Source of the DNA: Desulfobacter vibrioformis DSM 8776
GTDB lineage: Bacteria; Desulfobacterota; Desulfobacteria; Desulfobacterales; Desulfobacteraceae
DNA: 64,000 nt
Assembly (NCBI RefSeq): GCF_000745975.1
Contig: NZ_JQKJ01000004.1
Location: 1-64,000 of the forward strand
Direction: 5' to 3'
Made by a program: the position numbers and the translations under genes. This document shows, piece by piece, positions 2,972-19,909 of this stretch (its first letter is position 1; each line of letters opens with the position of its first letter). The notes beneath the pieces are model-generated. The model was not told the origin of the DNA and searched no databases. It saw only the letters and a list, made by a program, of their open reading frames with translations.

Positions 2972-3094
2972 ACGCTTACTTTTTGAGCTCTTTGCACGGG
3001 CATTACGGACATGGCAGTCTGACTCTAATGAGTCGTTTTTAATTTTACTATCAAGTTTCATATTCTATTTCTATTCAAAACTCGGAGAAGAGGC

Positions 3095-4054
3095 TTATCC
3101 CAACATGCCCAGTGCCTCACGAATTTTTTCTTCATTCTCAATCACACCCCCGGGTTTCCACATATCGTCGATATGTTGTTTACAGGCCTGATGCCGGTAG
3201 TTCATCGGTAAGCCAGCCAGCAGTAGGGTTTCCATGTCCCACATCTCCGGTTCGGTCATGACCAACCGGTCTATCTCGTTGTTGAAGAAAAGCATGGCAC
3301 CGCTTCGGATGAAGCTGGGCAAAACGTCGCGGTAACCTGGGGATTTCAAGCGCTCAAGAAGCTGCCTGAGTACTTGAGATTGTACGCTCCAATCCCTTCG
3401 GTTCTGGGTCCCGTAGGCGTCTTCATGGCGGCGGCGGGCAATGACCGGAGACGGGATGTGGCATAATCCGTACCGGAAAGCAACCACCAGATAGGCAAAC
3501 CAGTCACAGTGCCATTTCAGGTCGTCGAGAAAATATCCGGCCGTTTTGAGGGCTTTGCGATTGATGAAGCTGGCGCAACTGGGAACCCACCATCCCTTGA
3601 GGACTTCTGCGAATGCCTCCGGCGTGTAGTGGGCAGGCGCTTTTCCCCATCCGTTCTTCATCTCTTTGACCTTTCCCGTTTCAACATCGACCATGTAGTA
3701 GTCGCCGCAGCATATGCCCACGCCGGGGTGTTGTTTCAGCATGACTTCGGCCTGCTCGAACCATCCCGGCAGGACAACATCGTCCGCCGGGAATCCGAAG
3801 ATATAATCCCCTGTGGCCAGCCTGAAGGCGGTATTGCAAGCAGCCACCGGCCCCTGGTTTTCCTCGTGGTGGTGCAGGGAGAGCTGCGGATATCTTTTCA
3901 TCAGCCCTTGGATCACCTCCCGGCTGTTGTCTGTCGAGCCGTCATCCACCACGATGACCTCGTCCGGGGAACGGGATTGATCCAGTATTGATGTCAGGGA
4001 GTTACCGATGCGATCCCCGTGATTGTAGTTCGGCATGATGACAGAAAGTTTCAT
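3095..4054 (-). CDS. GT2 family glycosyltransferase
   Basis: This is a GT-A fold glycosyltransferase that uses a nucleotide sugar. It begins MKLSVIMPNYNHGDRIGNSL and has the family's VVDDGSTDNS motif. The metal-binding region reads FGFPADDVVLPGW, in which ADD plays the DXD role. The ATG at 4054 is preceded by GGAG at a good distance; the frame is open for 24 more codons upstream, without homology. It follows the CgeB-like glycosyltransferase closely, so both probably act on the same glycan. The acceptor is unknown. Confidence 0.85.
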   Translation of the reverse strand: MKLSVIMPNYNHGDRIGNSLTSILDQSRSPDEVIVVDDGSTDNSREVIQGLMKRYPQLSLHHHEENQGPVAACNTAFRLATGDYIFGFPADDVVLPGWFEQAEVMLKQHPGVGICCGDYYMVDVETGKVKEMKNGWGKAPAHYTPEAFAEVLKGWWVPSCASFINRKALKTAGYFLDDLKWHCDWFAYLVVAFRYGLCHIPSPVIARRRHEDAYGTQNRRDWSVQSQVLRQLLERLKSPGYRDVLPSFIRSGAMLFFNNEIDRLVMTEPEMWDMETLLLAGLPMNYRHQACKQHIDDMWKPGGVIENEEKIREALGMLG

Positions 4055-4086
4055 TGTATTTTCTCCGGACTGCGGCGGTTGGCGGT

Positions 4087-5199
4087 TTAGAGAAGAGCCG
4101 ACAGTTCTTCGTGAATCTGTTTGCAACGGGCCGTGAGCGTATGGCAGGTTAGGGTCTTTTTCTGGCCCCTGGTCGCCACGGACTTGCGCAGGGCTGCATT
4201 ACCGAGTAACTCTTCGAGTTTGATAAAACACTCTTCCCTGCTGGAAAAGGTCACGACGTCCACCCCTTCCTCGAAAAGCTCCGGCATGTTCACCCCGGTG
4301 TCAGTAAGCAGGCAAACCCCGACGCCGGTGGCTTCAAACAACCGCATGTTGCCGACATATTTGTCGGCAGCATCTGTATGCATATTCAATACCACGCCGC
4401 AAGAGAGAAGGCGTTTGTACATTTCCAGACCAAAACAGGGATTTTCCACCTGGTCAGGATACAACTTGGACAGCGGTCTTTGGTCGACCGGACGGTTAGG
4501 TTCAATTTCATGTAACCACCCTCGCAGTTCTGTCTTTTCAAAGAGTTCCGCAAGCAGGGAGTAGCGAAAGGAATGGTTTGGGTAGCCGTATCCTGACGAA
4601 CCGATAAAGCCGCAGGGCCATTGCTGCACTATTTTTTCATTCCCGGCAAAGGCGTCCAGAATGGTCTCATCAAAGCAGTGGTACAGCAGGCGGGCGTTGA
4701 CGCCTTTTTTTTGGAATTGATCAACAATGCCGGGTGTGCATGTATAGACCAGATCCGCAGTTGCCAGTTCCTTGAAAGCGTGGGGAAATCCTTTCTGGGA
4801 TACAAAAAGCCGGATAAATGGGAACCGGGTTTTGAAATCCTTGAGAATTGCAACAGGCAGAAAAAATATCTCCATGGCATAGACTACGTCGGGGCGATAA
4901 TGTCGAATTTGTTCAAGAATGATCTCTTGTTGCCAGTTTTTTTCACTGTAAGTGAAATGATGTTCGTCAGCCCATTTTTTCTGTAGGCATTCCACATCAT
5001 AAACGATGTCTATTGCCTTGTTTCCCAACGCCTCCATGCAATCCGCAAACGCATTGATGTAGATGTATCTTCTGCTGCGGTAGGCATCATGCAGCTCGGT
5101 ATAGTTCAAGTTCTCCCAGTCCGGGATTTCCCTGAGAAAATTGTCGAGTACCGCGTACCCGTGCTTTGCCGAAAAACGAAGTATCGTGAACTGCGTCAT
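4087..5199 (-). CDS. CgeB-like glycosyltransferase
   Basis: This roughly 370-aa protein resembles the CgeB/Glyco_trans_1_2 type of retaining GT-B transferase. The C-terminal part carries MRLFEATGVGVCLLTDTGVNMPELFEEG, matching the family's pattern of R-L-F-E-x-x-x-x-G followed by an Asp or Glu ending the next strand. The ATG at 5199 has AAGGAG five bases upstream and is preferred over the GTG at 5205. It lies between an aminotransferase gene and a GT2 gene in the same orientation. It likely adds one sugar of the surface glycan; donor specificity cannot be inferred. Confidence 0.75.
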   Translation of the reverse strand: MTQFTILRFSAKHGYAVLDNFLREIPDWENLNYTELHDAYRSRRYIYINAFADCMEALGNKAIDIVYDVECLQKKWADEHHFTYSEKNWQQEIILEQIRHYRPDVVYAMEIFFLPVAILKDFKTRFPFIRLFVSQKGFPHAFKELATADLVYTCTPGIVDQFQKKGVNARLLYHCFDETILDAFAGNEKIVQQWPCGFIGSSGYGYPNHSFRYSLLAELFEKTELRGWLHEIEPNRPVDQRPLSKLYPDQVENPCFGLEMYKRLLSCGVVLNMHTDAADKYVGNMRLFEATGVGVCLLTDTGVNMPELFEEGVDVVTFSSREECFIKLEELLGNAALRKSVATRGQKKTLTCHTLTARCKQIHEELSALL

Positions 5200-5251
5200 A
5201 TCCACTCCTTTTGTGGCATTGTGAAAACCCGGCTGACTGTCATGCTCTCCC

Positions 5252-6367
5252 TTATTCCTTCACTAAGCCGATAACGGCCTGGGCCACCCGGTCCACCTGA
5301 TCCGGAGTCATTTCGGGAAAAATTGGCAGAGAGATAATGGAACCAGCCAGTTTATGGGTAATTGGCAAGGCTTCAGGTGCAATGTCCATCCCTTTGAATA
5401 CCGGTTGTTCATGGAGTGGTACGGGGTAGTGAATCCCTGCTCCGATTTTTTGCTCATGCAGCCCGGCAAGAACCCGGTCCCGTTCCGGAACCTGGATGAC
5501 ATAAAGATGAAATACATGATCTGCTTCTTTGGCTACGGTCGGGGTAACAACTGCGTGGACGGCGCAGAAGGCTTTGTCATATAGCGCGGCAATTTGTCTC
5601 CGCCGTTCGTTCCACTCCCGAAGATACCGGATTTTTACGTTGAGCACGGCAGCCTGGATTCCATCCAGCCTGGAGTTCAACCCAGAGGTCTCATGGAAGT
5701 ATTTGCCCTTCCGTCCATGGTTGGCGGCCATGGTTATGGCTTCGGCGAGGGATTTGTCCCGGGTGAAGATGGCCCCGCCGTCACCCCACGCCCCAAGGTT
5801 TTTTCCCGGATAAAAACTGAAGCAGGCCGCATCCCCGTACATGCCCGGTCCCTTTCCTTTCCAGGACGCCCCGTGGGCCTGGGCCGCATCTTCGATCACG
5901 GCCAGGCCGTGATCTGCCGCAATTTCCATGATTCCTTCCATATTCACCATCTGGCCGTACAGGTGTACCGGCACTATTCCTTTGGTGCGGGGGGTGATGG
6001 CCCGGGCCACAAGTTCCGGGGTCATGATCCAGGTATGGGGATCAATGTCCACGAAGACCGGGACATATCCCGCCATGATAATGGCTTCCGCAGTGGCTAT
6101 GAAGGTGTGGGAAGGGAGGATAATCTCTTTGGTGTTGTCCCCCGGGCCCAATACGCAGCGGATGACAAGGTACAGGGCGTCGGTTCCGTTTCCACATAAG
6201 ACCGCATGGCCGCCGCCACAAAATTTGGCAAAAGCTTCTCTAAATTCCGCATGTGCCGTACCGCCAATAAAACTGGTGGATGAGATGCACTGTTCAACGG
6301 CTGCGTCGAATTCATGTTTGTAAGCGCTATATTGTGCTTTCAGGTCTACCAATGGAATTGTGGTCAT
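5252..6367 (-). CDS. DegT/DnrJ/EryC1/StrS family sugar aminotransferase
   Basis: This PLP-dependent enzyme of about 371 aa would transaminate a keto-sugar nucleotide to an amino sugar. It begins TTIPLVDLKAQY, a typical start for the family. The PLP-binding Lys is in CFSFYPGKNLGAWGDGG, and the Asp that contacts the pyridine ring is in VIEDAAQAHGA. The ATG at 6367 overlaps the preceding oxidoreductase stop (ATGA), so the two are translationally coupled. A Gfo/Idh/MocA dehydrogenase followed by DegT is a common pair: the first makes a 3- or 4-keto sugar and the second aminates it. The exact product is not deducible. Confidence 0.9.
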   Translation of the reverse strand: MTTIPLVDLKAQYSAYKHEFDAAVEQCISSTSFIGGTAHAEFREAFAKFCGGGHAVLCGNGTDALYLVIRCVLGPGDNTKEIILPSHTFIATAEAIIMAGYVPVFVDIDPHTWIMTPELVARAITPRTKGIVPVHLYGQMVNMEGIMEIAADHGLAVIEDAAQAHGASWKGKGPGMYGDAACFSFYPGKNLGAWGDGGAIFTRDKSLAEAITMAANHGRKGKYFHETSGLNSRLDGIQAAVLNVKIRYLREWNERRRQIAALYDKAFCAVHAVVTPTVAKEADHVFHLYVIQVPERDRVLAGLHEQKIGAGIHYPVPLHEQPVFKGMDIAPEALPITHKLAGSIISLPIFPEMTPDQVDRVAQAVIGLVKE

Positions 6368-7374
6368 GGAATCATCTTTCGGATATGCGTGTTGGTGTTC
6401 AGGATGTTCACAACGCCAAGGGCATGATTGGCGTCGGTAAGACAGGCGGCATCCCCTCTGATGCAATCCATGAAATGCTGGATTTCCACCTTGAGCGGTT
6501 CCTGGAAATTCACCCTGGGCATAATCAAATCGCCGGAGCGGTGGGTGAAGGTGGGAAATGCGTGGGTGTCATAATCCATATTCTCGCCAAGAACAGCCAT
6601 CCGGTCAATTCCCTTGTCAAAAATGGCAATCTTGTTCTCGGCCATGTCGTCGTATACAACCATTTTCTTTTCGCCGACCACGGTCATGCGCCGCACCTTT
6701 TGCGGGTCCAGCCAGCTGACGTGCACATGGGCCATGACCTTGCCCGGATACAGGATGTTCAAGAACACGGTGTCTTCAATTCCCTTCTGGATATAATCCA
6801 TGCCTTGACGCTGCACGGCAAGGGGGGACACGTCATCAAGAAGGTATTGGATGATACTGATGTCATGAGGCCCAAGGTTCCACAGGACATCTACATCCGA
6901 ACGGATCCGCCCAAGGTTCAAACGCTGACTGTAGATGTACCGGATGTTACCAAGCTGCCCCGAGGAAACAAGTTTTTTAAGGAACCTGACAGCAGGATTG
7001 TAGAGAAAGGTGTGTCCGACCATGGCAATCAACCCCTTTTCCCGGGCCAGGTCCCGGATATGTTCAACCTCTTCCACCGTACCTGCCATGGGTTTTTCAA
7101 CCAGGATATGCTTTCCTTGTCCCAATGCCCTCATCGCCAGGTCGTAATGGGTGAAAACGGGTGTAGCGATAACCACGGCGTCGATCTCAGGGTCTGCAAG
7201 AACACTCTGACAATCATCCGTGACGTCAATGGCAGGATATAGACCGCTCACGTACTTCCGGCGTTCCGCAGCCAGGTCGCACAGGGATTTCACCCGGCAC
7301 TGGGAATTGGCAACGAGATTTCGGAGCAGGTTGGGGCCCCAATAGCCGCAACCGATCTGGGCAACGCAAATCAT
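6364..7374 (-). CDS. Gfo/Idh/MocA family NAD(P)-dependent sugar oxidoreductase
   Basis: The N-terminal Rossmann fold starts ICVAQIGCGYWGPNLLRN, with the GxGxxG-type nucleotide-binding loop. The conserved EKP motif (HILVEKPMAGTVEE) supplies the lysine common to the family. The C-terminal domain reads NLGPHDISIIQYLL, which contains the usual His near the active site. It probably oxidises a sugar-nucleotide hydroxyl to supply the keto substrate for the aminotransferase that it overlaps by 4 bp. The ATG at 7374 is chosen because the protein start matches the family; the open frame upstream does not. Confidence 0.88.
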   Translation of the reverse strand: MICVAQIGCGYWGPNLLRNLVANSQCRVKSLCDLAAERRKYVSGLYPAIDVTDDCQSVLADPEIDAVVIATPVFTHYDLAMRALGQGKHILVEKPMAGTVEEVEHIRDLAREKGLIAMVGHTFLYNPAVRFLKKLVSSGQLGNIRYIYSQRLNLGRIRSDVDVLWNLGPHDISIIQYLLDDVSPLAVQRQGMDYIQKGIEDTVFLNILYPGKVMAHVHVSWLDPQKVRRMTVVGEKKMVVYDDMAENKIAIFDKGIDRMAVLGENMDYDTHAFPTFTHRSGDLIMPRVNFQEPLKVEIQHFMDCIRGDAACLTDANHALGVVNILNTNTHIRKMIP

Positions 7375-7378
7375 GCTT

Positions 7379-8761
7379 TTATACCTCCCGCCAGGACAGG
7401 TCGTGCCCGTTCCAGGCGCTTTCAATATAGGGCATCTCCCTCCGCGGGAAGACCAAACCGTCAAGGTGTTCCTTGAACCAGTCGAGCAGCTCTTCATCCA
7501 CATAGGCGGGCCTTCCCATCCTCCGTGTGTGGACCATCACGTCGGCCCAGTTTTCCATAGTCTTTGGGACGGGCCAGCCCATATCAAAGCACTCCTGGCA
7601 GGATGGTGTTCCCGGATTGGGAATGAGTTGGTTTAAATTCACCTGGGCATAGGGATTGGTGGCGCTGATGCGATACATGGCCCGGTAGGTTGCCTCCAAA
7701 TCTTCACGGCGTTCTCCCGGGAATCCAAAAATGAAATGGTACCAGGCCTTGATGCCGTGTTTGGCAAGTTTTTTGCTAGCCTCGAACGTGACGTCGATAC
7801 CCTCCTTTTTCCGGATGTGATCCAACACCCTGTTGGAGCCGCTCTCTACCCCAATGCCAAACATGGTTACGCCCGCCTTGATCAGCAGCTCATAAAAAGC
7901 ATCATCCTGGGCTGCCAGAAAGTCTGACCGGACAGCAATAAACATTTCAAGTTTCCAGCCCCGCCGGATGATCTCATTAAGGATGGTTTCAGCCCGCCGT
8001 TTGTCCACGAACAGGTTGTCGTCGTTAAACGTAATGGAGTTGACACCCTGGTTCACGATGTCTTCGACGCAGGAAATGACCTTTTCAGCACTCATTTTTC
8101 GAAATTTTTCCCGTTTGGCCGCATTGACGCAATAGGTGCAGCGAAAGGCGCATCCGCGGGTGGACTCGATGGATAGAATTTGTTCGCCCTTGAGCCCGAA
8201 AAAATCCTCCGGCCCTTTGCCTCGCTTGTACAGGCTCAGATCAATAAGATGATAGGGCAGGGCAGGCAGGGAATCAAGATCGAAATATTCATGGCGCTTC
8301 CGGGTAAACACGGGTTTGCCGTTTTCCATAAACCCGATACTGTGAACATTGTGAAGGGAGGTGCCGTTTGCTATGGCATCATAGAGTTCAAGGACGGTCT
8401 CCTCACCCTCGCCTAGGCAAACGATGTCCACGGCATCATGGGCCAGGGTAGTATCAGGTTCCGTGCTCGGATGGACGCCACCCCATACTACGGGCAGGTC
8501 CGGATTGAAGCGGCGGACGATTTCAGCAGCGGCAATACCGCTGCGAAGCATGGGGCCTATAACCACACTGATACCGACAAATATTGTGTTGTCGTTCAAC
8601 AGGGCTTGCAGGCGAGCCAATCCATCCGGCAGGACTGATAAATCGAGGATTTCGACAGTTACACCCTGTTGCAACAACATTGCTGCAAGATGCAGTGTCC
8701 CCAGTTGAGGCCGGGTATTGGGACAACCACTGTCAGGGTCAATGAGAATTACGTTGGCCAT
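7379..8761 (-). CDS. B12-binding-domain radical SAM enzyme
   Basis: This 460-aa protein combines a cobalamin-binding-type N-terminal domain (about residues 1-140, starting VILIDPDSGCPNTRPQLGT) with a radical SAM core. The cluster-binding motif is CAFRCTYC, near residue 208. Members of this class carry out methylations or other radical chemistry on unactivated carbons. The classical DxHxxG cobalamin-ligand motif is not evident, so cobalamin may bind base-off without a His ligand, or not at all. Its stop is 4 bp from the oxidoreductase start. In this glycan locus it may modify a sugar or lipid precursor; that is inference. Confidence 0.8.
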   Translation of the reverse strand: MANVILIDPDSGCPNTRPQLGTLHLAAMLLQQGVTVEILDLSVLPDGLARLQALLNDNTIFVGISVVIGPMLRSGIAAAEIVRRFNPDLPVVWGGVHPSTEPDTTLAHDAVDIVCLGEGEETVLELYDAIANGTSLHNVHSIGFMENGKPVFTRKRHEYFDLDSLPALPYHLIDLSLYKRGKGPEDFFGLKGEQILSIESTRGCAFRCTYCVNAAKREKFRKMSAEKVISCVEDIVNQGVNSITFNDDNLFVDKRRAETILNEIIRRGWKLEMFIAVRSDFLAAQDDAFYELLIKAGVTMFGIGVESGSNRVLDHIRKKEGIDVTFEASKKLAKHGIKAWYHFIFGFPGERREDLEATYRAMYRISATNPYAQVNLNQLIPNPGTPSCQECFDMGWPVPKTMENWADVMVHTRRMGRPAYVDEELLDWFKEHLDGLVFPRREMPYIESAWNGHDLSWREV

Positions 8762-8842
8762 GATTCCTCATTTCAGGATCTGCATTGTGAGAATTCATTA
8801 AAAACCTTTTTAGTATTCCCAACTGGTTGTTTTTGTTGGTAT

Positions 8843-10312
8843 TCATTGTTTAATTGCTTTAATAACAGCGGTTTGACACAATAAATCTTCTACCTTGTAA
8901 GGGAACCAGGACTTGTCAATAATTGGCGGAATATTTGAACTGACTATTTTTCTGACCACTTCAACCTTGAAACCGATTTCTTCCCATAATTTGATGAAGT
9001 CGTTGATACGCATCAAATTTGTACCGGTCCATTTTCTAGTCCAATCGCCCCGGGAATATTTAAGAAAACCAAAATGTATCCCGGAACTGCTTCCTCCTGT
9101 GTGATCATTCATCCCGATTTCATGAAGCATTTCCCCGCCTTTTTTTAAAACACGAAAAATTTCTTCAGAAAGGGATGCTACATCCAGAACATGTTCAAAA
9201 ACCATTTTCGATGTACAAAAATCGACACTTTCCGACGCTAAATCAAGATCATGCAGAGGCGTGTTATGAATAGAAAAACGGGGTAAATGTGATGGTGTAT
9301 GGGATGATACCGATTCCGATAAATAAGGAAATAACTCGCTTAGCTGCATAAAAAAAGATTTAGCCAATTGGTCATTGAATTCAAATTTTTCAAATGGCTC
9401 TAAAGCGATGACTTCTTTAAATCGAGATGCCATTAAAAAGGAAATAAGTGGCATATGCCCGAAACCTAACTCTATATACCGATCCCCGCTTGCAGGAAAT
9501 TGATTTTCGAATCTTTGAAACCATCGAATCTGTCCTGCAAGTTTTTCCATGGGGATGGTTGATAAAAAATGTTGTTCTACAAAATCGTCTAACCAATCAA
9601 TTCCGGGTACATTGAAGTAGGTTGCTGAATATTTTTCTCTTGATTGCCGTGAAAACCAAAGGTCAGCATTGTGCGTTTGATAAAAAGATGAAATGAATTG
9701 GTTGGGCATGGAACCGGTGTCTCCGGCATACTTCATGAGCCAAAGAAACTCTTCACTTTTTGTATAGGCATGCTGAGCATGAGTTCCCCTCAATCGACCG
9801 GTGGCATTTCTATCAATGGCTTGCGGTTTAGACGGAACGATTGACTGGTCATTTACTGACAGCAGAAAATCAATGGTTGCTGAATTGATGATGCTGAATT
9901 CCAAATTGCTTAAAGCGACGTTTGCCCCGGCAAAATCAAATTCGCCACTTTGGACTCTCATGAATTGATTCTGTATAAACACGTCATCAAAAAAATAGGT
10001 ATAGGAACTGATACAGCAAACAATGTCCCATTCTTTGGCTTTCGATAATTTGGCCACCCGAATGTGGGGATAGACATCGTGACCAATATCAAATTCAAAT
10101 CCCCATTTGGAGATGATCTCAATGAACCTGGGTGGAACATCAGGAGAAACAGAGAATACGATCTGGCTGAAAACGTTTTGTTTGATGAGTTCACGAAGGA
10201 TTTTGGGATAAAGATACTCCCCCTCACACTTGAGCATTGACAGACAATTATCCGATAAAGGCCGCACTACGGAAATGCAGGGAATTGCGTTGGAATGGAG
10301 GCTATTGCTCAT
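8843..10312 (-). CDS. bidomain protein with C-terminal SAM methyltransferase
   Basis: This protein is about 489 aa long. The C-terminal half is a class I methyltransferase: motif I reads RYIELGFGHMPLISFL, and the later strands include VDFCTSKMVFEHVLDV and RVLKKGGEMLHEIGM. The N-terminal roughly 170 residues begin CISVVRPLSDNC and loosely resemble CMP-sialate-synthetase or SpsF-type nucleotidyltransferases, but the motif match is weak. I chose the ATG at 10312 because AGGAG lies 5 bases upstream; other starts (10324, or TTG at 10333) lack a ribosome site. Codon use is more AT-rich than in the genes either side, a possible sign of separate acquisition. Confidence 0.7.
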   Translation of the reverse strand: MSNSLHSNAIPCISVVRPLSDNCLSMLKCEGEYLYPKILRELIKQNVFSQIVFSVSPDVPPRFIEIISKWGFEFDIGHDVYPHIRVAKLSKAKEWDIVCCISSYTYFFDDVFIQNQFMRVQSGEFDFAGANVALSNLEFSIINSATIDFLLSVNDQSIVPSKPQAIDRNATGRLRGTHAQHAYTKSEEFLWLMKYAGDTGSMPNQFISSFYQTHNADLWFSRQSREKYSATYFNVPGIDWLDDFVEQHFLSTIPMEKLAGQIRWFQRFENQFPASGDRYIELGFGHMPLISFLMASRFKEVIALEPFEKFEFNDQLAKSFFMQLSELFPYLSESVSSHTPSHLPRFSIHNTPLHDLDLASESVDFCTSKMVFEHVLDVASLSEEIFRVLKKGGEMLHEIGMNDHTGGSSSGIHFGFLKYSRGDWTRKWTGTNLMRINDFIKLWEEIGFKVEVVRKIVSSNIPPIIDKSWFPYKVEDLLCQTAVIKAIKQ

Positions 10313-10376
10313 AAGGCTCCTCATTGTTTTCAAAGTGGTCTAAATATGTATTTTAATGACGGTTGGCACAGACTTT

Positions 10377-11357
10377 TCAATTCCTGTTCCCACCGGCTTC
10401 TACATCGTTGACTGCCGTCCACAGTTCAGGGAAGGTCTCACGATGGGTCCCTTTGACATACCAACTGTTGCCCCTGGTACTCACAGTTCTCACCAGCAGG
10501 GTCTTCCATGGCCGGAAATAGTAGTTGGGGTCGGATTTGCCCGCCTCATCGGCATAGGAGGGCGGAAGATCCTTGAGATCACAGACAAGGGTGCAAAAGT
10601 CTTCTACGGTTTTTCCTTTTTGGCGGGCTGCGTTTCGAACCATGGACAACGCCTTGAGAAAAATCTCCGGAGCCATGACCGCACTTCCGAAGCTGGACAG
10701 GGTTCCGCCTTCTATGGATTCCAGTATGTTGGCAAAATAGAGGAAATCTGTGTAACTGGCCTTACCTGCCGTTGCTCCGTCAAAATTAGGATGCTGGTGG
10801 ATGATATCATAGCCGATGCCGATATGAACGGTGACAGGGATATTCAGCTGATATGCCCTTGCCAGCAGACTGATTTCCCGGTGGGGCAATTTGTTTTCAA
10901 GAATATAACGACCGACGCATTCCCCCAACCCTTCATCCCGGGCCACACCCTCGGCTATAATTTCATTGAGATATCCAGTTTCCTGCCAGAAACCGAAACG
11001 GCCATCTTTTATGTAATGCGCCACAGATTCTGTTGTTTGGCCGATAAGGGCAAATTCGTAGTCATGGATAACGCAAGCACCATTAACCGCTATGCAGGAA
11101 ATAAGATGCCGCTCCATGAGATCAATAATAAAAGGCTGTACGCCTGAACGGATGGTATGCGCCCCAAGCATGAATACATTGGACGCCTTTTGATTCCTGG
11201 CCTTAAGCATTTTCCGGGCAACGTCCCGGAAGGGCGGCCGAACAGATGCTGTCGGATGTAAATGCATAATAGTGGATAGATCCAGGTCGTTCCTGCGCTT
11301 TTTTAAAGGAATCACCTCAATACTGCTGACGTCAAATTGTGTATACTTCCCTGTCAT
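10377..11357 (-). CDS. deoxyhypusine synthase-like protein
   Basis: This roughly 326-aa protein resembles the deoxyhypusine synthase (DS) fold, an NAD-dependent family that moves the aminobutyl group of spermidine. Visible DS-like segments are VFMLGAHTIRSGVQPFIIDL followed by ISCIAVNGACVIHDYEFAL, and the late segment YYFRPWKTLLVRTV. In that late segment, a Lys near residue 285 could sit where the catalytic Lys of DS sits (WGKIRV in the human enzyme). Bacteria lack eIF5A, so the acceptor would differ. The call rests on motif reading only and could be a distant structural relative with another job. The ATG at 11357 has AGG seven bases upstream; the TTG six codons earlier is less likely. Confidence 0.5.
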   Translation of the reverse strand: MTGKYTQFDVSSIEVIPLKKRRNDLDLSTIMHLHPTASVRPPFRDVARKMLKARNQKASNVFMLGAHTIRSGVQPFIIDLMERHLISCIAVNGACVIHDYEFALIGQTTESVAHYIKDGRFGFWQETGYLNEIIAEGVARDEGLGECVGRYILENKLPHREISLLARAYQLNIPVTVHIGIGYDIIHQHPNFDGATAGKASYTDFLYFANILESIEGGTLSSFGSAVMAPEIFLKALSMVRNAARQKGKTVEDFCTLVCDLKDLPPSYADEAGKSDPNYYFRPWKTLLVRTVSTRGNSWYVKGTHRETFPELWTAVNDVEAGGNRN

Positions 11358-11378
11358 GGAATAACCTGCGGACAATTC

Positions 11379-12527
11379 TCATTCCCTCTGCTCGACGGGT
11401 ATCGCGTAGAGAATGGTCTCATTTAGAAAGTGGCAGTAGTGTCCAATATGAAAGATGTAGTCCTTTAACATGTTGTTCAGCAGCAGAGGGAGGCGAAAGA
11501 TATCTTCCTTTTTGTGGTAGATGGACACAGCCAGGTTAGGCCGGTGTTCTGTGATGGTTTTTTTTGCGCCCACTAATGCCTGGGCCTCGGCACCCTCAAT
11601 ATCCAGGCATATATAATCCACACGCTTGATGCGATGCATCATTACAAACTCATCAATAGAAATTGTATGAATGGTTTTGGTTTTTGGGTTTAATGGTGCA
11701 TCGGACCGCAGGGTCGCGCAGGCGCCATGACCTGTCATGGGCAAAATATCACGGGAATGCCACAACCCCATGGGATGGATGTGAACCTTTCCGGACTGTT
11801 CGATAAGCTTGAGAGTTTCCCGGGATATGTTTGAGTTTCCCCAGGGTTCAAAGCCATGGATAGCTTCTATGCCGGGGAAAAACCCCAAAAATTTTAAACA
11901 GTCCATGCCGTCAAACACACCTGCATGGAGGATGGTCTTGATCGTATCCCTTTGTATAAAATCCAGATATTGCTCCGTGAGATGAGAGAAGACTGTGTTC
12001 CGTATCCGGGGATAATCAACAATTTGGGAATTGATGGCATCAAGATTGACCAAAGAAGACCCTTCACATCTTCCATCGACCAAAAATTGAAATATTGTTT
12101 TATCTTTATCCGTATTTAGCAACGCCTTAGCCGCTTTAATATCATCCTGGGCTTGAATCATATCCCCATGTGTGTACACATATTTGTGCCATAGCCCCAA
12201 AGAAGCCACGCCATAGTCAGAAATACCGGCCATTTCCAACTTAGTGACGATGTCCCGCCACCAGGCAGAGGTGATCAGAATAAAGTCGTACTGTATGTTT
12301 AGTGAGGGAAGATCGTCCAGTTTGACCTTCCGTAATCCAGCCACCGCACCGTTGTCAAAGGAATCCAAAAAACAAACAACCTTTATGTCAGGACGACGGT
12401 CGCGGATTTTGTTCAGCACTGAAAGACCGGCATCACCACTGCCATACAATAGAATCCGCCCGTTATGCGGCAGCTTGTCCAGCGTAAAATCTGTTTTTGG
12501 GGCCTTGGTAATTTCCTTTGGTTTCAT
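11379..12527 (-). CDS. FkbM-family methyltransferase with N-terminal nucleotide-binding domain
   Basis: The C-terminal part matches FkbM-type SAM methyltransferases: a motif around ILHAGVFDGMDCLKFLG, then IHGFEPWGNS and DYICLDIEGAEAQALVGA, the last being the family's signature acidic stretch. The N-terminal 100 residues (GRILLYGSGDAGLSVLNKI, then VVCFLDS) form a separate Rossmann-like nucleotide-binding domain of the PglD_N or CapF type. A similar domain forms the C-terminus of the locus regulator at 20141-20836. It probably O-methylates a sugar of the glycan. The ATG at 12527 is chosen on family length; the ribosome site is weak, so translation may depend on the upstream gene, which ends 13 bp before. 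Confidence 0.8.
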   Translation of the reverse strand: MKPKEITKAPKTDFTLDKLPHNGRILLYGSGDAGLSVLNKIRDRRPDIKVVCFLDSFDNGAVAGLRKVKLDDLPSLNIQYDFILITSAWWRDIVTKLEMAGISDYGVASLGLWHKYVYTHGDMIQAQDDIKAAKALLNTDKDKTIFQFLVDGRCEGSSLVNLDAINSQIVDYPRIRNTVFSHLTEQYLDFIQRDTIKTILHAGVFDGMDCLKFLGFFPGIEAIHGFEPWGNSNISRETLKLIEQSGKVHIHPMGLWHSRDILPMTGHGACATLRSDAPLNPKTKTIHTISIDEFVMMHRIKRVDYICLDIEGAEAQALVGAKKTITEHRPNLAVSIYHKKEDIFRLPLLLNNMLKDYIFHIGHYCHFLNETILYAIPVEQRE

Positions 12528-12540
12528 GGGAGATGAACGT

Positions 12541-14637
12541 CTACTCCAATATGCCGATGTGGGTTTCACCCAGACCGTCACACGGCGCGCAAAAGCCATA
12601 ATCCGGGCAGATGTCCAGGCAGATGTTTTCCTTAAGGGAATGGGTCAGCATATTTTCCATGGGCTGTGTTTTGCGCATTAGACGCGAAACACACTGGTAG
12701 CGTGTCCCTTCCGGATCGATGAGGTATATTTTTCGACGGCAGACAGCTTTTTGGGCGTTATTCTGCATACAGCCCGGAAAATTGCGTTGATCTGCATCCA
12801 AATCAATGTTCAATCCATTGTTTCTGAAAAATGCTAAATCCTGGGTTAAAAATTCTCTGTTTTCAGGGGCATCAACGGCATGAACAGTAAGTGAAAACAG
12901 GGGATTGTCTTGAATTGTCTTGATATTATTTAAAAATATATCACGACCAGGCATTTGGCGGGCATGCCAGCTGACAAAAAAACGGACCTCCCTGTCAATG
13001 TCTGCAAGCTGATCCCTGACATCAATACTCAGATTAGAATAAACAGATATGGATAAAAATGGATCAATATGGTTGATTATTTTTACCAAGTCCTTGTATA
13101 AGAATGGTTCCCCACCGGTGAACACGACATGACACATTTCCCGATTGATTGCTTTAATCCATTTTTCCCCGGGAATAATTTTATGATTTTTTTCTATTCC
13201 TTTGATATTTGCATTGACACAGTACGGACAGTTTAAATTACATTGAAGTGTCAGATAAATACGTAATTTCCCATCAAACTGGGCTGAATTGATATAAGTA
13301 TCTTTAAGTTTCCAGCCATTGGATTTTGCAATATTGCTCAAATTTTCCAATTGATTGGGCGCGTAACGAAAGGGTCGATCATGATTATTAAGTTCCGGCC
13401 GGCTGCCGGTTTTATTTAAAAGTGTTAATGCCTGTCCGTACTCCCTCTGATAACGGCTGAAAAAATTAGGATTATCCGTTATTGAAGCTTGCGACTCATA
13501 AAAGTTGACGGCTGATTTTAGAAGTGATGCTGCATAGTCTTTATCCGTGTTTTCTATGTGCAGCCCGGCACAGCGGATATATTCATCCAGCGTGGCATGG
13601 GTGTTGTGGTTTATGGCACAAAAATCAAATAGGGCGTCATGGCCTTTTCTGCCTTTATTTTCTTTAAAAAAATCAAGCATCTGGGCCGCGTTTTCTTTTT
13701 CTGAGCCCATGCCTTGAATATGCTCAAGTGCGGCCTTTGAAAACGCTTCCCACTGTTTGGGATTCTCCTGGAGCTGAATGATGCGGTTGGCTGCATGATT
13801 GATATTACCGACGTCAATTTGATACCCGGTGACTTGATCAACACAATAGTCCGTCATTCCGCCAATATTGGTGCATATGGGTACGGCGCCGCAGGCCATT
13901 GCTTCCATGGGTGGAATGTGTAATCCTTCTTGGTCACTCATTGCCAGCCAGACATGGCAGCAGCGCATCATGTCCCGTAATTCCATCCGGCTGGGATAGG
14001 CTATATATTCAGCATGGTCAGGCAGTATGTCCGGTCTTTTGGCCGCACCGAAAAGTTTTAGCTTTGCATGGCACCCTTTTTGTCGAACTTCTTCAACAAC
14101 TTCCAGAAGGTCGGCAAAACGTTTTCTGGGCATTGAGTTGTATAGTCCTCCAATGACAATTTCCTGGGTTGGCGGCGCTTTAACGGGCGAATTAAAAATA
14201 TCGAAATCAATGCCGTAGGGAATGAGGCAGGCCTTCTTGGACGTATGTTGCATCGCCGCATCTGCCAGGTAACGGGCAACGGCTATAAGATGGACAGGCT
14301 GGCGCCAGTTTTTAATGATGGCCTCACTTGTGCCGGACCAATTCTCAAAGTCCTGCAGATAGGCAAATTTAACGCCTTTAGAAGCCGGCAGGGCAGATAG
14401 TTTGCCGGCCATATACCAGGAGGAACATAAAACTGCATCACAATCGGGTACTTCATTGGGCTTAAGTTCAGGTGAAAATATTCTTTTCCCACGGACTTCA
14501 ATCAGGTTAAAGCAAAAGGAATGGGTATAGGTGATAAATATTTCATGACCCATATTTGCGAGGATATTGGCATATTTGATAAGCTGCAGACATCCTCCGC
14601 AATTGCGGTATCCATCATTTAGAAAATTGATTTTCAT
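12541..14637 (-). CDS. GT4 glycosyltransferase fused to a radical SAM/SPASM-type domain
   Basis: This 698-aa fusion has three parts. Residues 1 to about 330 are a GT4 glycosyltransferase with the E-x7-E region EGLHIPPMEAMACGAVP. Residues 330-455 are a helical linker. Residues 457-690 are a radical SAM domain with CNLNCPYC (Cys466, Cys470, Cys473) and the SAM-binding GGEP at 508-511. The last 75 residues contain seven Cys (623, 633, 649, 673, 677, 683, 686), suggesting an auxiliary iron-sulfur cluster of SPASM type. The ATG start overlaps the stop of the preceding GT9 gene by 4 bp. The frame is continuous with no frameshift, so this is a true fusion. It could transfer a sugar and oxidise or epimerise it; the substrate is unknown. 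Confidence 0.8.
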   Translation of the reverse strand: MKINFLNDGYRNCGGCLQLIKYANILANMGHEIFITYTHSFCFNLIEVRGKRIFSPELKPNEVPDCDAVLCSSWYMAGKLSALPASKGVKFAYLQDFENWSGTSEAIIKNWRQPVHLIAVARYLADAAMQHTSKKACLIPYGIDFDIFNSPVKAPPTQEIVIGGLYNSMPRKRFADLLEVVEEVRQKGCHAKLKLFGAAKRPDILPDHAEYIAYPSRMELRDMMRCCHVWLAMSDQEGLHIPPMEAMACGAVPICTNIGGMTDYCVDQVTGYQIDVGNINHAANRIIQLQENPKQWEAFSKAALEHIQGMGSEKENAAQMLDFFKENKGRKGHDALFDFCAINHNTHATLDEYIRCAGLHIENTDKDYAASLLKSAVNFYESQASITDNPNFFSRYQREYGQALTLLNKTGSRPELNNHDRPFRYAPNQLENLSNIAKSNGWKLKDTYINSAQFDGKLRIYLTLQCNLNCPYCVNANIKGIEKNHKIIPGEKWIKAINREMCHVVFTGGEPFLYKDLVKIINHIDPFLSISVYSNLSIDVRDQLADIDREVRFFVSWHARQMPGRDIFLNNIKTIQDNPLFSLTVHAVDAPENREFLTQDLAFFRNNGLNIDLDADQRNFPGCMQNNAQKAVCRRKIYLIDPEGTRYQCVSRLMRKTQPMENMLTHSLKENICLDICPDYGFCAPCDGLGETHIGILE

Positions 14638-15935
14638 ATGTAATTTGCGGCAAGGGAAGGGCAGATACGGTCAACTGCTGACAGAACCATATCCACGGAC
14701 ATGTTTTTAAGGCATGCGTATTTCAGCGTACATGCATAATCCCACGGTTTCAGGCGTCCAGGCCCATTGTGTTTCCCCTGGCATGGCTGACAGTCAAGCC
14801 CAAGACTCAGACAGTGTGCATTCTTTTTTAAGGGTTTGTTTTTTTTAATTGATGACGGCCCAAACAGGATAATCGTCGGCGCATTGGCCGCAACAGCAAT
14901 ATGGGCCAGGCCGCAGTCGTTGGCAATCACTAATTTGGCATGCCTCAGTATGGCTGCAACTTCCGGCAGATCAGCATTTTTTATTATTGTCGCCCCGCAA
15001 TCACAAAGCGTTGAAAGAAAATTAAGGGTGCTGTAGGCATCTATGTCCATTTGCTGACAAAGGATGATTGGATTATCTAATTGTTTCGCCAATTGTGAAA
15101 AATAAGGCCAGCGCTTGGAATCCCAGCCCGGCTTGCTGCCGGGACATAGAACGATACGTTGCTTGAACTGCTCAGAAAGACTAACGTCTAAGCCGCCTAC
15201 AAATGTTTCTTCCACAAAAGGCTTGATACCTGTGACGTTTTTGAAAAAATCGGCATATGCTTCACCTTCGTTTTTATGCATTGGTTCACGATAAGGAGAA
15301 TAAAAAAAGTCTTCATTGTGAATATGGGCCCGGCATTCAATATTGAGTCGTACATCCGCCTTAAACTGTAAGGCGTCCTCCGGTTCAATCAGCGCCAGGC
15401 CCGGTAAAGCATTTTTAAATAGTCTTGTCAGGGAGCCTCCACTGTCAAATAATGGGCAAAATGCCGTATGCATTCCATGTTGGACTGCGGCTGAGAGCAA
15501 GGAAGTCATCTGGATGACATTGCCGATACCTGCACATGCAATTAAGAAAATGGTATGGATATGTTCTGATTTTTTACAATAAGGAGGTGAAATGACAAAT
15601 TCACCAGACTGACTGATGAGCCGAACCGTTGTAACCCCCATAAGTCCCAGTGATGTAATATAACTTTCCCAGCCCCAGGGCCGTGTGTCGTCTTTCACAA
15701 GAATAATTTCATCAAATGACACTATATTTATAGCCAGAGAAAAGAGGTCATCCCGTGAAGGTATTAGGGGGCCATTGTCAAAAAAAAGAGAATGACAATG
15801 GGGAAAACGGGAGTGAATAATTGGGGCATCGCTTTTATGGCATAACAGGGTTGAGGCAGGTCCAATGACGTGATCCAGGAACTCTAGTTGAGCCAGTCCG
15901 GGCTCGGGAAGTATTATAGAGTCACAGCTTGACAT
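14634..15935 (-). CDS. GT9 family (heptosyltransferase-like) glycosyltransferase
   Basis: This is a second GT9-type protein in the locus, 433 aa long. The family start appears only after about 125 residues (HTIFLIACAGIGNVIQMTSLL). The donor-site loop reads AKLVIANDCGLAHIAVAANA, followed by IILFGPSS. The extra N-terminal region (with PIIHSRFPHCHSLFFDNG) is unusual for the family. The C-terminus has a Cys-rich tail (LGLDCQPCQGKHNGPG) like many of these transferases. It overlaps its neighbours at both ends (4 bp and 1 bp), consistent with a tightly coupled operon. Confidence 0.78.
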   Translation of the reverse strand: MSSCDSIILPEPGLAQLEFLDHVIGPASTLLCHKSDAPIIHSRFPHCHSLFFDNGPLIPSRDDLFSLAINIVSFDEIILVKDDTRPWGWESYITSLGLMGVTTVRLISQSGEFVISPPYCKKSEHIHTIFLIACAGIGNVIQMTSLLSAAVQHGMHTAFCPLFDSGGSLTRLFKNALPGLALIEPEDALQFKADVRLNIECRAHIHNEDFFYSPYREPMHKNEGEAYADFFKNVTGIKPFVEETFVGGLDVSLSEQFKQRIVLCPGSKPGWDSKRWPYFSQLAKQLDNPIILCQQMDIDAYSTLNFLSTLCDCGATIIKNADLPEVAAILRHAKLVIANDCGLAHIAVAANAPTIILFGPSSIKKNKPLKKNAHCLSLGLDCQPCQGKHNGPGRLKPWDYACTLKYACLKNMSVDMVLSAVDRICPSLAANYI

Positions 15936-16888
15936 TATTGAATTTGCTCTACCAGTTGCTCAGATACTTTTCGGGGCGACCAGTTCTTCTCCATAAACTC
16001 CCTGGACTCTCGGCCTATTTCTTTTACTTTATCAGGATCGTTGATCAGTATATTCAGCTGTTTTTCGAGCTCCGGGGGCGTTGTAATGACCCATGGGAGC
16101 TGGGTTGTCCTGGCGAATATTTTAATATGTTGGATATTCCATTCATCTAATCCGGCTATTACGCAAAGTCCCTGGCTTAGTCCTTCAAGGCTGGTGACGC
16201 CAAAATATCCTTGAAGATGATCGAAAAGAATATGACACTGCCGTTTTAAGTTAAGGCATTCTTTGTGGGCCGTGTTTTCTATAAGGCGCATTTTTACAGG
16301 CGTTTGTGAAGAATTGCCTATTTCATTCATGATCTGAATAAACTCATCTGTATTTTTAAGATCTTTTCTCGTTGGTGAATGGCAAATCAATACAGGGTGT
16401 TCTGGTTTATTTTTTATGGGGGAATATAATGGATCTTCTATGGGAACCAAATTAGGCTGCCATTTTGCCTGGGGCAGAAGCTTTAGTAAATCCGGAGTGC
16501 TTACTAAAAGATTAGAACGGCCTAATTTCTTATATTTTTCCCGGTATTTTCCGGGGTTTCCCCGAAAATCAGGATGGCCGTGGTGGTGATGGACGATCCG
16601 TTTTCCTTTAACATAATCTTTGGGAAGAAAAGGGCCAAGCTCGGTGTATTCATCGGCTGTCATGTGAAAATGAAAAACGTCGCTTTCCTTTAACAAACTT
16701 TCCACTTCTCCCCATCCATCCTGGTCAAGCCAGGGTAAATGGATATCTTTTTCAAACATGAAGTTGTAACGAATCTCTTTAGTAATCAGGCGGCAGGTGT
16801 GATGGGTATATCTGTTAATGGCCTTTGTAAATTCTATGGCTGTTCCTGCAGGATCGTTTATGGCTATCATTAATATGCGCATGATCAT
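15935..16888 (-). CDS. glycosyltransferase, GT4-like
   Basis: This 317-aa GT-B type protein has an N-terminal domain including SDVFHFHMTADEYTELGPF and a conserved basic KRIVHHHHGHPDF stretch. Its C-terminal nucleotide-sugar domain reads GYFGVTSLEGLSQGLCVIAG, an E-rich region resembling the GT4 donor site. It is somewhat short for GT4 (usually 350-400 aa). It lies between the sialidase-like gene and the second GT9 gene, and overlaps the latter by one base. ATG codons at 16888 and 16882 are both possible; no clear ribosome site separates them. Confidence 0.65.
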   Translation of the reverse strand: MIMRILMIAINDPAGTAIEFTKAINRYTHHTCRLITKEIRYNFMFEKDIHLPWLDQDGWGEVESLLKESDVFHFHMTADEYTELGPFLPKDYVKGKRIVHHHHGHPDFRGNPGKYREKYKKLGRSNLLVSTPDLLKLLPQAKWQPNLVPIEDPLYSPIKNKPEHPVLICHSPTRKDLKNTDEFIQIMNEIGNSSQTPVKMRLIENTAHKECLNLKRQCHILFDHLQGYFGVTSLEGLSQGLCVIAGLDEWNIQHIKIFARTTQLPWVITTPPELEKQLNILINDPDKVKEIGRESREFMEKNWSPRKVSEQLVEQIQ

Positions 16889-16928
16889 AAACGCTGCAGG
16901 TCGGTATAATGCCTAATATTAAATATGG

Positions 16929-18026
16929 TCATTTCCCTTCCGAAATATCCATTATCCATTTCAGATTAAAACGAGCAAGGGCCATGGAGCAGCATTGATC
17001 AGAGGATGATGGAAGACCCGTCATGGACGGGGTGGTTTTGTACATGAGAAGGATAGTGCCGTCTGCTGCTATTGTCATTGCTGAATAGTCAAACCAGGCT
17101 CCGAAACCCGTTACGGCTCTGGAATATTGCCAGGTTTCCCCGCCATCTGTGCTTAGACGGACCACGCCGTGTTCCCGGTAGGAGGTGTCACTGTCCGGAT
17201 TGGCAAAGAGGATAACATCCTCGCCAATTCGGTCTGACATACCTGTTTTTTTGAGTAGCTCTTTTGGGTAACGGATCATGCTCGCATTGCATCCCTGGGA
17301 GAGTTCCTTCAGGGCCGGGTCATCTTTGGTCTCGAAAAACGATGTACCTGCGTCACGGCTCAGTGCGGTCTTTCTCCTGAAGTCATCAAAATAGGCCCGG
17401 GCATTGAAGTAGATATCACCATTGTTCCTTTCCGCAAGGCAGGCCTCTCCTGTCCCTTGATGGAATGCATTTGCCCGGTAAAGGGTTTTGCCGTGGTCGT
17501 CACTGAAGATGGCCGTGCTGTAACATTTTTCCCTTCTGTCGGAGATGGATTGGTCATTATACCCATTGGTGGTGATGGTTACTCTGGCCGGCCATACCAG
17601 GCGGCCCTTATGCCTGCCAAACCGGAGCTGAATTCCGGGCGCACTGCCATGGGTGCCACCCAATCCGCCGGGGGATTGCATGTTGTATTCAGGCCGCCAG
17701 TCCGTCCAGGTATCCCCATTGTCTGCACTTTGAAGCCACCCACCGCCGCACATGAGAAGAACGTTGCCGGTTTCGCTGTCTGTCACCGCCGATCCCATAT
17801 GCCACTTGGCACCTTGCTTGCGACGCAGTTCCGTAAGCTGTCCCCATGTTTGACCGTTATCTTTGCTTTTTTTCATTACAATATGGCATTCGCCCACATC
17901 ATCGCATGGCGATTGCCACCGTTGCTCGCAAAAGGCCAGAATGGAGCCGTCCGGTGCGGTCACAATAGAGGGAACATGGTAAAAGGCGTTCTCTTTTTGG
18001 GCAATAATGATAAATCGTTCGAACAC
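16929..18026 (-). CDS. sialidase-like (BNR/Asp-box) protein without signal peptide
   Basis: This 365-aa beta-propeller has five Asp boxes: SKDNGQTW (54-61), SADNGDTW (100-107), SDDHGKTL (175-182), SRDAGTSF (223-230) and STDGGETW (292-299). That layout is typical of GH33 sialidases. A candidate nucleophile Tyr is in WFDYSAM (Tyr314) and a candidate Glu is in GTGEACLAE (Glu194). The usual (F/Y)RIP motif is YHVP here, so the first Arg of the catalytic triad is missing. There is no signal peptide, which suggests a cytoplasmic enzyme acting within glycan synthesis or turnover, not a secreted sialidase. Its start lies 11 bp after the nonulosonate synthase stop, so the two are co-transcribed. Confidence 0.75.
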   Translation of the reverse strand: MFERFIIIAQKENAFYHVPSIVTAPDGSILAFCEQRWQSPCDDVGECHIVMKKSKDNGQTWGQLTELRRKQGAKWHMGSAVTDSETGNVLLMCGGGWLQSADNGDTWTDWRPEYNMQSPGGLGGTHGSAPGIQLRFGRHKGRLVWPARVTITTNGYNDQSISDRREKCYSTAIFSDDHGKTLYRANAFHQGTGEACLAERNNGDIYFNARAYFDDFRRKTALSRDAGTSFFETKDDPALKELSQGCNASMIRYPKELLKKTGMSDRIGEDVILFANPDSDTSYREHGVVRLSTDGGETWQYSRAVTGFGAWFDYSAMTIAADGTILLMYKTTPSMTGLPSSSDQCCSMALARFNLKWIMDISEGK

Positions 18027-18037
18027 GGAAGTATCGG

Positions 18038-19909
18038 TTACCTCATGTATTTGGAAATTAAGGAGATCGCTTTGAAAAATGCCCGCCCGTTGTTGAGGTG
18101 TCCCCGCCAGATTTCAGGGACCCATGATTCTGTGTAATTTGAAAAGAGCGGCATGATCCGGGTAAGATCAATGTCTCCCTCGCCAAACTGGACGCCTTCG
18201 CCGTCTACACCATAGGCATCGGCTAAATGAAGGTGTCTAATCAGCGGGTAGACTTTTTGAATGTACTCTTTGAGATCTATTCCCTTGGCATTGCAGTAAA
18301 GGGCGGCGTGGGAAAGGTCAAAAACCATATGAAGGCCTGCCTCATTGCACACTGAGACGATTTCATCCGGGTCCATGAAAAAATTCCCCTTCCATTCTCC
18401 GCCAAAAAGCCAGGGATAGGGGGGCAGGTTTTCCAAAAGCAGTTCAACGCCGCTGGTATCTATTTCAAATAATGATTGCATTAAAGCTTTTCGAAGAGGG
18501 GCTTTCGGCAGCTTCTCTTTCAGGCTGACAGCATCCGGGTGGACCACAATTTTGGGGATCCCCTGGAAAAAAGGACTCATTTCATTGGCCAATGCAATGG
18601 TTCTTTGGACAAGATCCACTGATTTGGATCTGATGGCATGATCTGAATGGCATAGGTTTATGATCCCGCCATCAATAAATTCCGGGGCATGGATGATCAA
18701 CTCCTGCCGATGGGGATGCTCGGGGATAAAGGCTGTGGCAAAATCCTTTTCTGCCAGATGAATTTCGATGACTTCGGGATCAAAGGAGATGATGTCATAA
18801 AAATCATTGAATCGTGCAATCAATCCCCATTTACTCTGGAAAGAATACGCCGATGGATGGGGAAGTCCGCCATTTCCATTTGTTTCCAAATCTTCTTCAA
18901 AGAAAAAAGTGTTTTTCTGGATGTTGCGATGAATGGATTTTCCGACCAAGTCATCCTTTCTGGATGTATGCAGACCCCTGCCGGGTCCCATTACTTTAAT
19001 ATGGGATTCATTGATAACACTGCCTTTGGGAAGGTCTTCCGCCGCGGCAAGGCTCTTTGCAAAAACTTCACGGTTGAGCACTTCACCACGGAGAAGGAAC
19101 CGCTTTCGGCTGCCCATGGCCTGATCTGCAATTTCAATATCTCTGACCAGCCGTTTGAAAGAGTACGGGTCAAGGCTGACTTTATGGTCGGTTCCTTCCA
19201 TGGTTGGATCAAGTGTCAGATGCTTTTCAATGATGCAGGCCCCCATGGATGCAGCGACAAGGGGGATGATAATGCCGATATCGTGTCCCGAATATCCCAC
19301 GGGCTTATCAAATTGCTTTAGCCAGTTAATCATTTTAAGATTCACATCTCTGGGCCAGACCGGGTACGCACTGCGGCAGTGGAGAATGGCATAATCTGCG
19401 GTCCGTTCATTCAGGAAGCGGACGGTTTGCTGGATTTCATGCCTGTAAGCCATTCCCGTGGAAATGATAATGGGAAGATCTTTGGATGCAATATATTCCA
19501 AAAGCGGATAATTTGTCAGATCTGCTGAGGCGACTTTAAATGCGGCAATGCCGGCGTTGTAGATCAACCGGGCACTGGTTATGTCAAATGGGGTGCAGAT
19601 GAAATCAATGGGCTTGTCCTCGGCATATCTTCTCAGTTCAAGGTAATCGTCGTTGGACAGTTCAAATTTTTTAAGAAGGGGAATGATATACTGAAAATTT
19701 TGCTCATACTTTTCAGGGTGATTGAGCATATCTTCCGGATAGAGGCTTATCAGGTCTCTTTTTTGAAATTTTACGGCATGGGCACCTGCGTCAACTGCGG
19801 CATCCACCAATTCTTTTGCTAATTTGAGGCTTCCATTATGATTGATTCCGGCTTCGGCCACAATGTAGGTTGGATGGTCTTGCCCAATTTTTCGGTTTCC
19901 GATGATCAT
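18038..19909 (-). CDS. NeuB-type nonulosonate synthase with SAF domain fused to a xylose-isomerase-like TIM barrel
   Basis: Residues 1 to about 280 are a NeuB-family synthase, which condenses phosphoenolpyruvate with an aldo-sugar to make sialic, legionaminic, pseudaminic or related acids. Visible motifs are EAGINHNG (19-26), VKFQKRD, CTPFD and GYSGHD. Residues 283-340 form the SAF (antifreeze-like) domain with PKGSVINESHIKVMGPGRGL. Residues 350-623 form a second TIM barrel of the AP-endonuclease-2/xylose-isomerase type (LLLENLPPYPWLFGG, FDLSHAALYC, HLHLADAYG). Typical NeuB is about 340-350 aa, so the extra barrel is a fusion. It could isomerise the sugar substrate or act on the product. The gene is first after the regulator. 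Confidence 0.85.
   Translation of the reverse strand: MIIGNRKIGQDHPTYIVAEAGINHNGSLKLAKELVDAAVDAGAHAVKFQKRDLISLYPEDMLNHPEKYEQNFQYIIPLLKKFELSNDDYLELRRYAEDKPIDFICTPFDITSARLIYNAGIAAFKVASADLTNYPLLEYIASKDLPIIISTGMAYRHEIQQTVRFLNERTADYAILHCRSAYPVWPRDVNLKMINWLKQFDKPVGYSGHDIGIIIPLVAASMGACIIEKHLTLDPTMEGTDHKVSLDPYSFKRLVRDIEIADQAMGSRKRFLLRGEVLNREVFAKSLAAAEDLPKGSVINESHIKVMGPGRGLHTSRKDDLVGKSIHRNIQKNTFFFEEDLETNGNGGLPHPSAYSFQSKWGLIARFNDFYDIISFDPEVIEIHLAEKDFATAFIPEHPHRQELIIHAPEFIDGGIINLCHSDHAIRSKSVDLVQRTIALANEMSPFFQGIPKIVVHPDAVSLKEKLPKAPLRKALMQSLFEIDTSGVELLLENLPPYPWLFGGEWKGNFFMDPDEIVSVCNEAGLHMVFDLSHAALYCNAKGIDLKEYIQKVYPLIRHLHLADAYGVDGEGVQFGEGDIDLTRIMPLFSNYTESWVPEIWRGHLNNGRAFFKAISLISKYMR

Follow-up and report, generated by a model that had tools for sequence, protein, structure and literature searches.

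A gene in a surface-glycan locus of Desulfobacter vibrioformis DSM 8776 encodes a GT4 glycosyltransferase fused to a radical SAM domain, and this fusion is real and recurs in glycan loci of other genomes. The gene lies in a window of 64,000 nucleotides (contig NZ_JQKJ01000004.1, positions 1 to 64,000), and the features of the gene and its surroundings are listed in Table 1. We put the probability at about one half that the encoded protein functions in surface-glycan assembly, where it would tailor a sugar of a carrier-linked glycan.

The reading frame runs from an ATG at 14637 to a TAG at 12541 and is open across 698 codons. According to the Pfam search of the translated protein, a single chain carries both Glycos_transf_1 (aa 170-304, E 1.2e-16) and Radical_SAM (aa 461-526, E 1.9e-7), each above the curated cut-off; Glycos_transf_1 and Glyco_trans_1_4 together span aa 161-304, likewise above the curated cut-offs. 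This result, obtained by the domain-database search that an earlier note on this DNA had proposed, bears out the one continuous GT4 and radical SAM frame described there, and the motifs CNLNCPYC and GGEP occur in the radical SAM part as that note had stated. The note had named two findings that would speak against the fusion: a break of the frame, by stop or frameshift, in the interval of residues 330-457, and a lack of homologues of the same architecture. Neither a stop nor a frameshift is present; there are no in-frame stops between the domains, whereas the other two frames hold 7 and 11. Homologues with the same architecture were found in four other genomes, and the fusion recurs in surface-glycan clusters, an arrangement that had been put forward in advance as support for a real unit. 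The possibility that an assembly or sequencing error joined two genes is virtually ruled out: the same fusion is present in four other assemblies, in one of them on a contig of 3.9 Mb, the five fusions can be aligned across the linker, which is homologous throughout, and the stops are confined to the frames that are not used. No evidence in support of such an error was found.

Table 1. Features of the fusion gene and its locus, in window coordinates.
Feature	Coordinates	Strand	Basis or remark
Collinear glycan block containing the fusion	1778..19909	-	Profile searches of window genes
FkbM-family methyltransferase partner	11379..12527	-	PF05050; start re-set to ATG 12527
GT4-helical linker-radical SAM/twitch-like fusion gene	12541..14637	-	698 aa; AlphaFold2 pLDDT 92.1, pTM 0.87
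Twitch-like C-terminal segment, aa 630-698	12544..12750	-	Invariant C633, C649, C677, C683, C686
Radical SAM core, aa 452-629	12751..13284	-	PF04055; radical SAM folds with Z 13-15
GGEP, SAM-binding motif, aa 508-511	13105..13116	-	Invariant among 23 relatives
CX3CX2C (CNLNCPYC), SAM cluster, aa 466-473	13219..13242	-	Invariant in 23 relatives
Helical linker, aa 334-451	13285..13638	-	Helices in model; 28-44% identity across fusions
GT4 (GT-B) domain, aa 1-333	13639..14637	-	Pfam PF00534/PF13692; BshA fold match
GT4 EX7E motif, E237...E245	13903..13929	-	Kept in 5/5 fusions
GT9 (heptosyltransferase family) partner	14634..15935	-	PF01075, E 6.7e-22

The N-terminal half of the window protein has the GT-B fold and the PF00534/PF13692 profile of GT4 enzymes together with the EX7E motif and a basic residue in the phosphate-binding loop. 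The best solved match of aa 1-333 of the full model was BshA (Z 33.5, 324 residues aligned, rmsd 3.6, 19% identity). The C-terminal half belongs to the radical SAM superfamily by its CX3CX2C cluster, its GGE motif, the PF04055 profile, and a partial TIM barrel. None of the named NCBIfam radical SAM equivalogs scored above its cut-off (MoaA, 40.7 bits versus 284; NrdG2, 40.5 versus 131). Pfam matches for both domains, again above the cut-offs, were also obtained for the fusions of loci L072, L073, and L049, and the linker between the domains yielded no Pfam match. As GT4 matches took up the results of the fold search with the complete model, the radical SAM part was folded and searched separately. 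This model (pLDDT 90.8) matched SuiB, viperin, DesII, EpeE, and MoaA, tied at Z 14-15, and BtrN at 13.3, and by this search falls in the SPASM/twitch fold group with DesII, BtrN, and BlsE. Peptide enzymes (SuiB, anSME, EpeE) are thus tied with enzymes acting on sugars or nucleotides (DesII, BtrN, viperin), and the fold neighbours of the predicted structure do not decide between a peptide and a sugar substrate.

The C-terminal tail had been described in the earlier note as SPASM-like, with seven cysteines in the last 75 or so residues. All seven are present, but conservation across 23 relatives extends to just five of them. In total, eight cysteines are invariant among these proteins, three of the SAM cluster and the five of the tail, which has the conserved pattern CX10GX4C...CX5CX2C. 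The SPASM motif is defined as CX9-15GX4C-gap-CX2CX5CX3C-gap-C with seven cysteines (PMC6231123). Its first part corresponds to C633-X10-G-X4-C649; CX2CX5CX3C and the final cysteine are missing, only CX10GX4C and CX5CX2C being conserved. In addition, PF13186 gave no match at E up to 1 in the four complete fusions and two stand-alone relatives; it does match radical SAM proteins encoded nearby. As the seven-cysteine motif is lacking and PF13186 does not match, the tail is, judged by its sequence, twitch-like and not SPASM. The sequence pattern and a predicted hairpin-helix fit a twitch, a truncated SPASM with cysteines on both sides of a beta-hairpin, a later cysteine, and a single auxiliary cluster. 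The twitch class includes BtrN, which acts on an aminocyclitol, and MoaA, which acts on GTP (PMC9012708). Since the class holds sugar and nucleotide enzymes, a peptide or protein substrate, as previously deduced from the tail, does not follow from it.

A scan of genome contigs by two narrow peptide patterns, which limited its recall, picked up two MAGs of Pseudodesulfovibrio, at 61% identity over the radical SAM part. The same fusion was present in four other genomes (51-63% identity), all from the class of these matches: complete in L049 (706 aa; L049:8645-10762, + strand), in L072 on the 3.9-Mb contig, and in L073 (with the start adjusted, exactly 698 aa), and interrupted by the contig start in L050. 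In the family of the Pseudodesulfovibrio matches (288 genomes), eight genomes had close radical SAM matches, four fused and four stand-alone (L074-L077, about 270-330 aa), and extending the search to the entire class (348 genomes) added none to these eight. Within the window's own family (86 genomes), close members occurred only in the window genome and, as a stand-alone copy, in one further genome (L004/L051). Overall, the radical SAM part was found fused in five cases and alone in five, the stand-alone close relatives being 37-52% identical. With close members in so few genomes across the families and the class, this radical SAM family is rare and patchy. Phages had no match to the radical SAM domain, and on plasmids the only matches were separate GT4 genes, 21-27% identical.

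The fusion nearest to the window protein is that of L072 (63% identity), which sits in a different class and suggests that the fusion moved by horizontal transfer. Transposase genes (HTH_Tnp_1, rve; window 147-1687, - strand) flank the glycan block and fit a mobile history. The distribution of the fused form on the radical SAM tree requires two changes, and L073 groups with stand-alone proteins (91/85). This position, which is not firmly resolved, would fit a loss of the GT4 part. The fusion may, but need not, have arisen once.

The core activity lies in the radical domain, and the GT4 part is accessory, lost or never present in the stand-alone relatives. This conclusion follows from the stand-alone radical SAM relatives, four of them in a cassette lacking GT4, and from the loss of motifs in the GT4 part of one fusion. 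In L074-L077, no GT4 homologue was detected at E 1e-6, and the rest of the cassette is common to them. The GT4 half of L049 shows 48-55% identity to those of the other fusions, which share 61-74% among themselves, whereas its radical SAM half is unremarkable (56-66% identity). The phosphate-binding loop reads PRKRF in the window protein versus PGGGF in L049, where E237/E245 are still in place; the RKR loop is kept in the window, L072, and L073, and lies outside the part of the protein covered in L050. With its Gly-rich and RKR loops gone and a faster divergence than that of the radical SAM half, the GT4 half of L049 looks as if it were losing function. Both this divergence and the stand-alone forms in the same cassette would be expected if the fusion were a loose tethering of two uncoupled, independently acting enzymes, or if the GT4 part were decaying. 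We consider such an explanation doubtful, as the GT4 half of the other fusions is as well conserved as the radical SAM half with its motifs intact, and as the GT4-plus-linker part matched in 4 of 287 genomes at E 1e-20, all four being the fusions, with no free GT4 homologue among them. The same observations on L049 and on the four stand-alone relatives weaken the previous suggestion that modification takes place during glycosylation.

The block around the fusion comprises two GT9 genes, genes for a GT2, a GT4-like, and a further glycosyltransferase, a DegT aminotransferase, a Gfo/Idh protein (closest to UDP-GlcNAc 3-dehydrogenase models, below cut-off), NeuB, a BNR protein, FkbM and other methyltransferases, a B12-radical SAM protein, and a GSU2086-family protein. 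The upstream GT9 gene and the fusion gene overlap by ATGA, and the FkbM-family gene begins 13 bases past the fusion stop. A GT9 partner is present in 7 of the 10 loci of close radical SAM relatives; if a distant family of ~290 aa is included, GT9 lies next to the radical SAM gene or no more than a few genes away in 13 of 17 loci, the exceptions being L050 (contig end), L072, L086, and L089. FkbM homologues occur in L050, L072, L074, L075, and L076. Homologues of the window's GT9, FkbM, and Gfo/Idh-DegT genes and of a GT2 from L074 recur around close relatives. More tentatively than for the single protein, and with less than even confidence, we propose a radical SAM family dedicated to carrier-linked surface glycans, which would be partnered by GT9 across Desulfobacterota and in some lineages fused to a glycosyltransferase so that both steps share one protein.

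Other genes of the block, all on the - strand, encode a GSU2086-family protein with weak similarity to deoxyhypusine synthase/ArgZ (10377-11375; NF052581, 374 bits), a B12-binding radical SAM protein that is the second radical enzyme of the glycan locus (7379-8761), a BNR/sialidase-like protein within the NeuB-containing biosynthetic block (16929-18026), and a NeuB protein joined to a TIM barrel resembling xylose isomerase (PF01261), with a SAF domain (18038-19909).

Alternatively, the radical domain might make or modify a nucleotide-activated sugar donor, which the GT4 part then uses. One of the best matches by fold (Z 14.8) is DesII, a radical SAM enzyme acting on a TDP-sugar, and both in the window and in L072 the fusion is accompanied by the amino-sugar genes Gfo/Idh and DegT. 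However, partnership is strongest with transferases (GT9, GT2), not with nucleotide-sugar enzymes, and stand-alone members occur without a GT4 to use the donor, so that we regard this route as rather improbable. Because its partners are transferases rather than nucleotide-sugar enzymes, we infer a glycan, most likely on a lipid carrier, as the substrate.

The earlier note had favoured a glycoprotein-maturation enzyme, in which the radical domain would modify a peptide or protein, e.g. pilin or flagellin, glycosylated by the GT4 part. The SPASM basis of this proposal is not supported. Peptide radical SAM enzymes are among the fold neighbours, and distant radical SAM relatives beside type IV pilin (N_methyl), TPR, and PMT-like genes make a protein acceptor possible; this link is indirect. 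These relatives are only ~25-28% identical, and their pilin and radical SAM genes lie on opposite strands. Type IV pilin and TPR genes are located near the distant radical SAM gene in L084, L087, and L088, with a PMT_2 gene in L084. In these three 15-kb loci and in L091, all from other Desulfobacterota, the ~290-aa radical SAM protein belongs to a conserved cluster with a SPASM radical SAM protein, an E1-type TPP enzyme pair, GT2, a B12-radical SAM protein, and GT9. A different fusion, GT2-radical SAM-GT2, near a flagellin gene would also agree with a protein acceptor. This 1194-aa GT2-radical SAM-GT2-TPR protein (L090:5450-9031, - strand; flagellin, L090:14652-15500) is a separate, unrelated glycosyltransferase-radical SAM fusion in a probable flagellar glycan island; tested as a second fused lineage, its radical SAM part had no relatives in 23 other genomes of its order. 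Another locus carries an 844-aa open frame with a radical SAM domain after repeated units of ~120 residues (L048:1-2535, + strand) and a methyltransferase-like frame. Within the scanned part of the window (147-24507), none of the genes could be identified as coding for a flagellin, a pilin, or an oligosaccharyltransferase. We consider glycoprotein maturation unlikely.

In the favoured role in surface-glycan assembly, the N-terminal GT4 domain would transfer a sugar from a nucleotide donor to a carrier-linked glycan, and the C-terminal radical SAM/twitch-like domain would draw on SAM and a single auxiliary Fe-S cluster in tailoring a sugar of this glycan or of its precursor. As guesses from the architecture, dehydrogenation as in BtrN or epimerisation would be the preferred reactions, the latter possibly with C677 as hydrogen donor. 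The protein would work in a conserved cassette with the GT9 transferase, the FkbM methyltransferase, and GT2. The fusion would put the modification beside the step of sugar addition, and because a stand-alone form exists, it would not be required for the modification. If this is true, the recurrent fusion and the lasting association with GT9 enzymes would imply that anaerobes diversify LPS, capsule, or glycoprotein glycans by radical chemistry. The radical SAM, GT9, FkbM, and GT2 genes also make up a small set that lends itself to testing.

In the open-licence papers that could be searched, no description of the GT4-radical SAM architecture came up; the only relevant case found there was a Brachyspira hyodysenteriae plasmid on which radical SAM and group-1 glycosyltransferase genes are adjacent in a surface-glycan block (PMC4267127). 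In that plasmid, compared here by gene arrangement only, the two are separate proteins. The fusion shares the GT-B fold, the EX7E motif, and PF00534 with GT4 enzymes of the BshA/PimA/WaaG type, to which it adds a C-terminal extension of 365 aa with the radical SAM domain. SPASM peptide maturases (SuiB, anSME, EpeE) reach similar fold scores with its radical SAM part; in contrast to these, the fusion has neither the seven-cysteine SPASM motif nor a Pfam match to a precursor-recognition domain of the PqqD type. Sugar-acting radical SAM enzymes are best known from antibiotic pathways. Twitch enzymes on sugar-like substrates (BtrN and SpeY; BlsE and DesII by fold) have in common with the fusion the CX3CX2C cluster, the partial barrel, and, in a short C-terminal segment that would bind Fe-S in the fusion, CX9-15GX4C plus CX2C; the fold scores are Z 10-15. 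However, the fusion is <20% identical to them in fold alignments, its tail holds one extra invariant cysteine (C677) where BtrN uses four, and it is joined to a GT4 enzyme and encoded in surface-glycan loci instead of antibiotic clusters.
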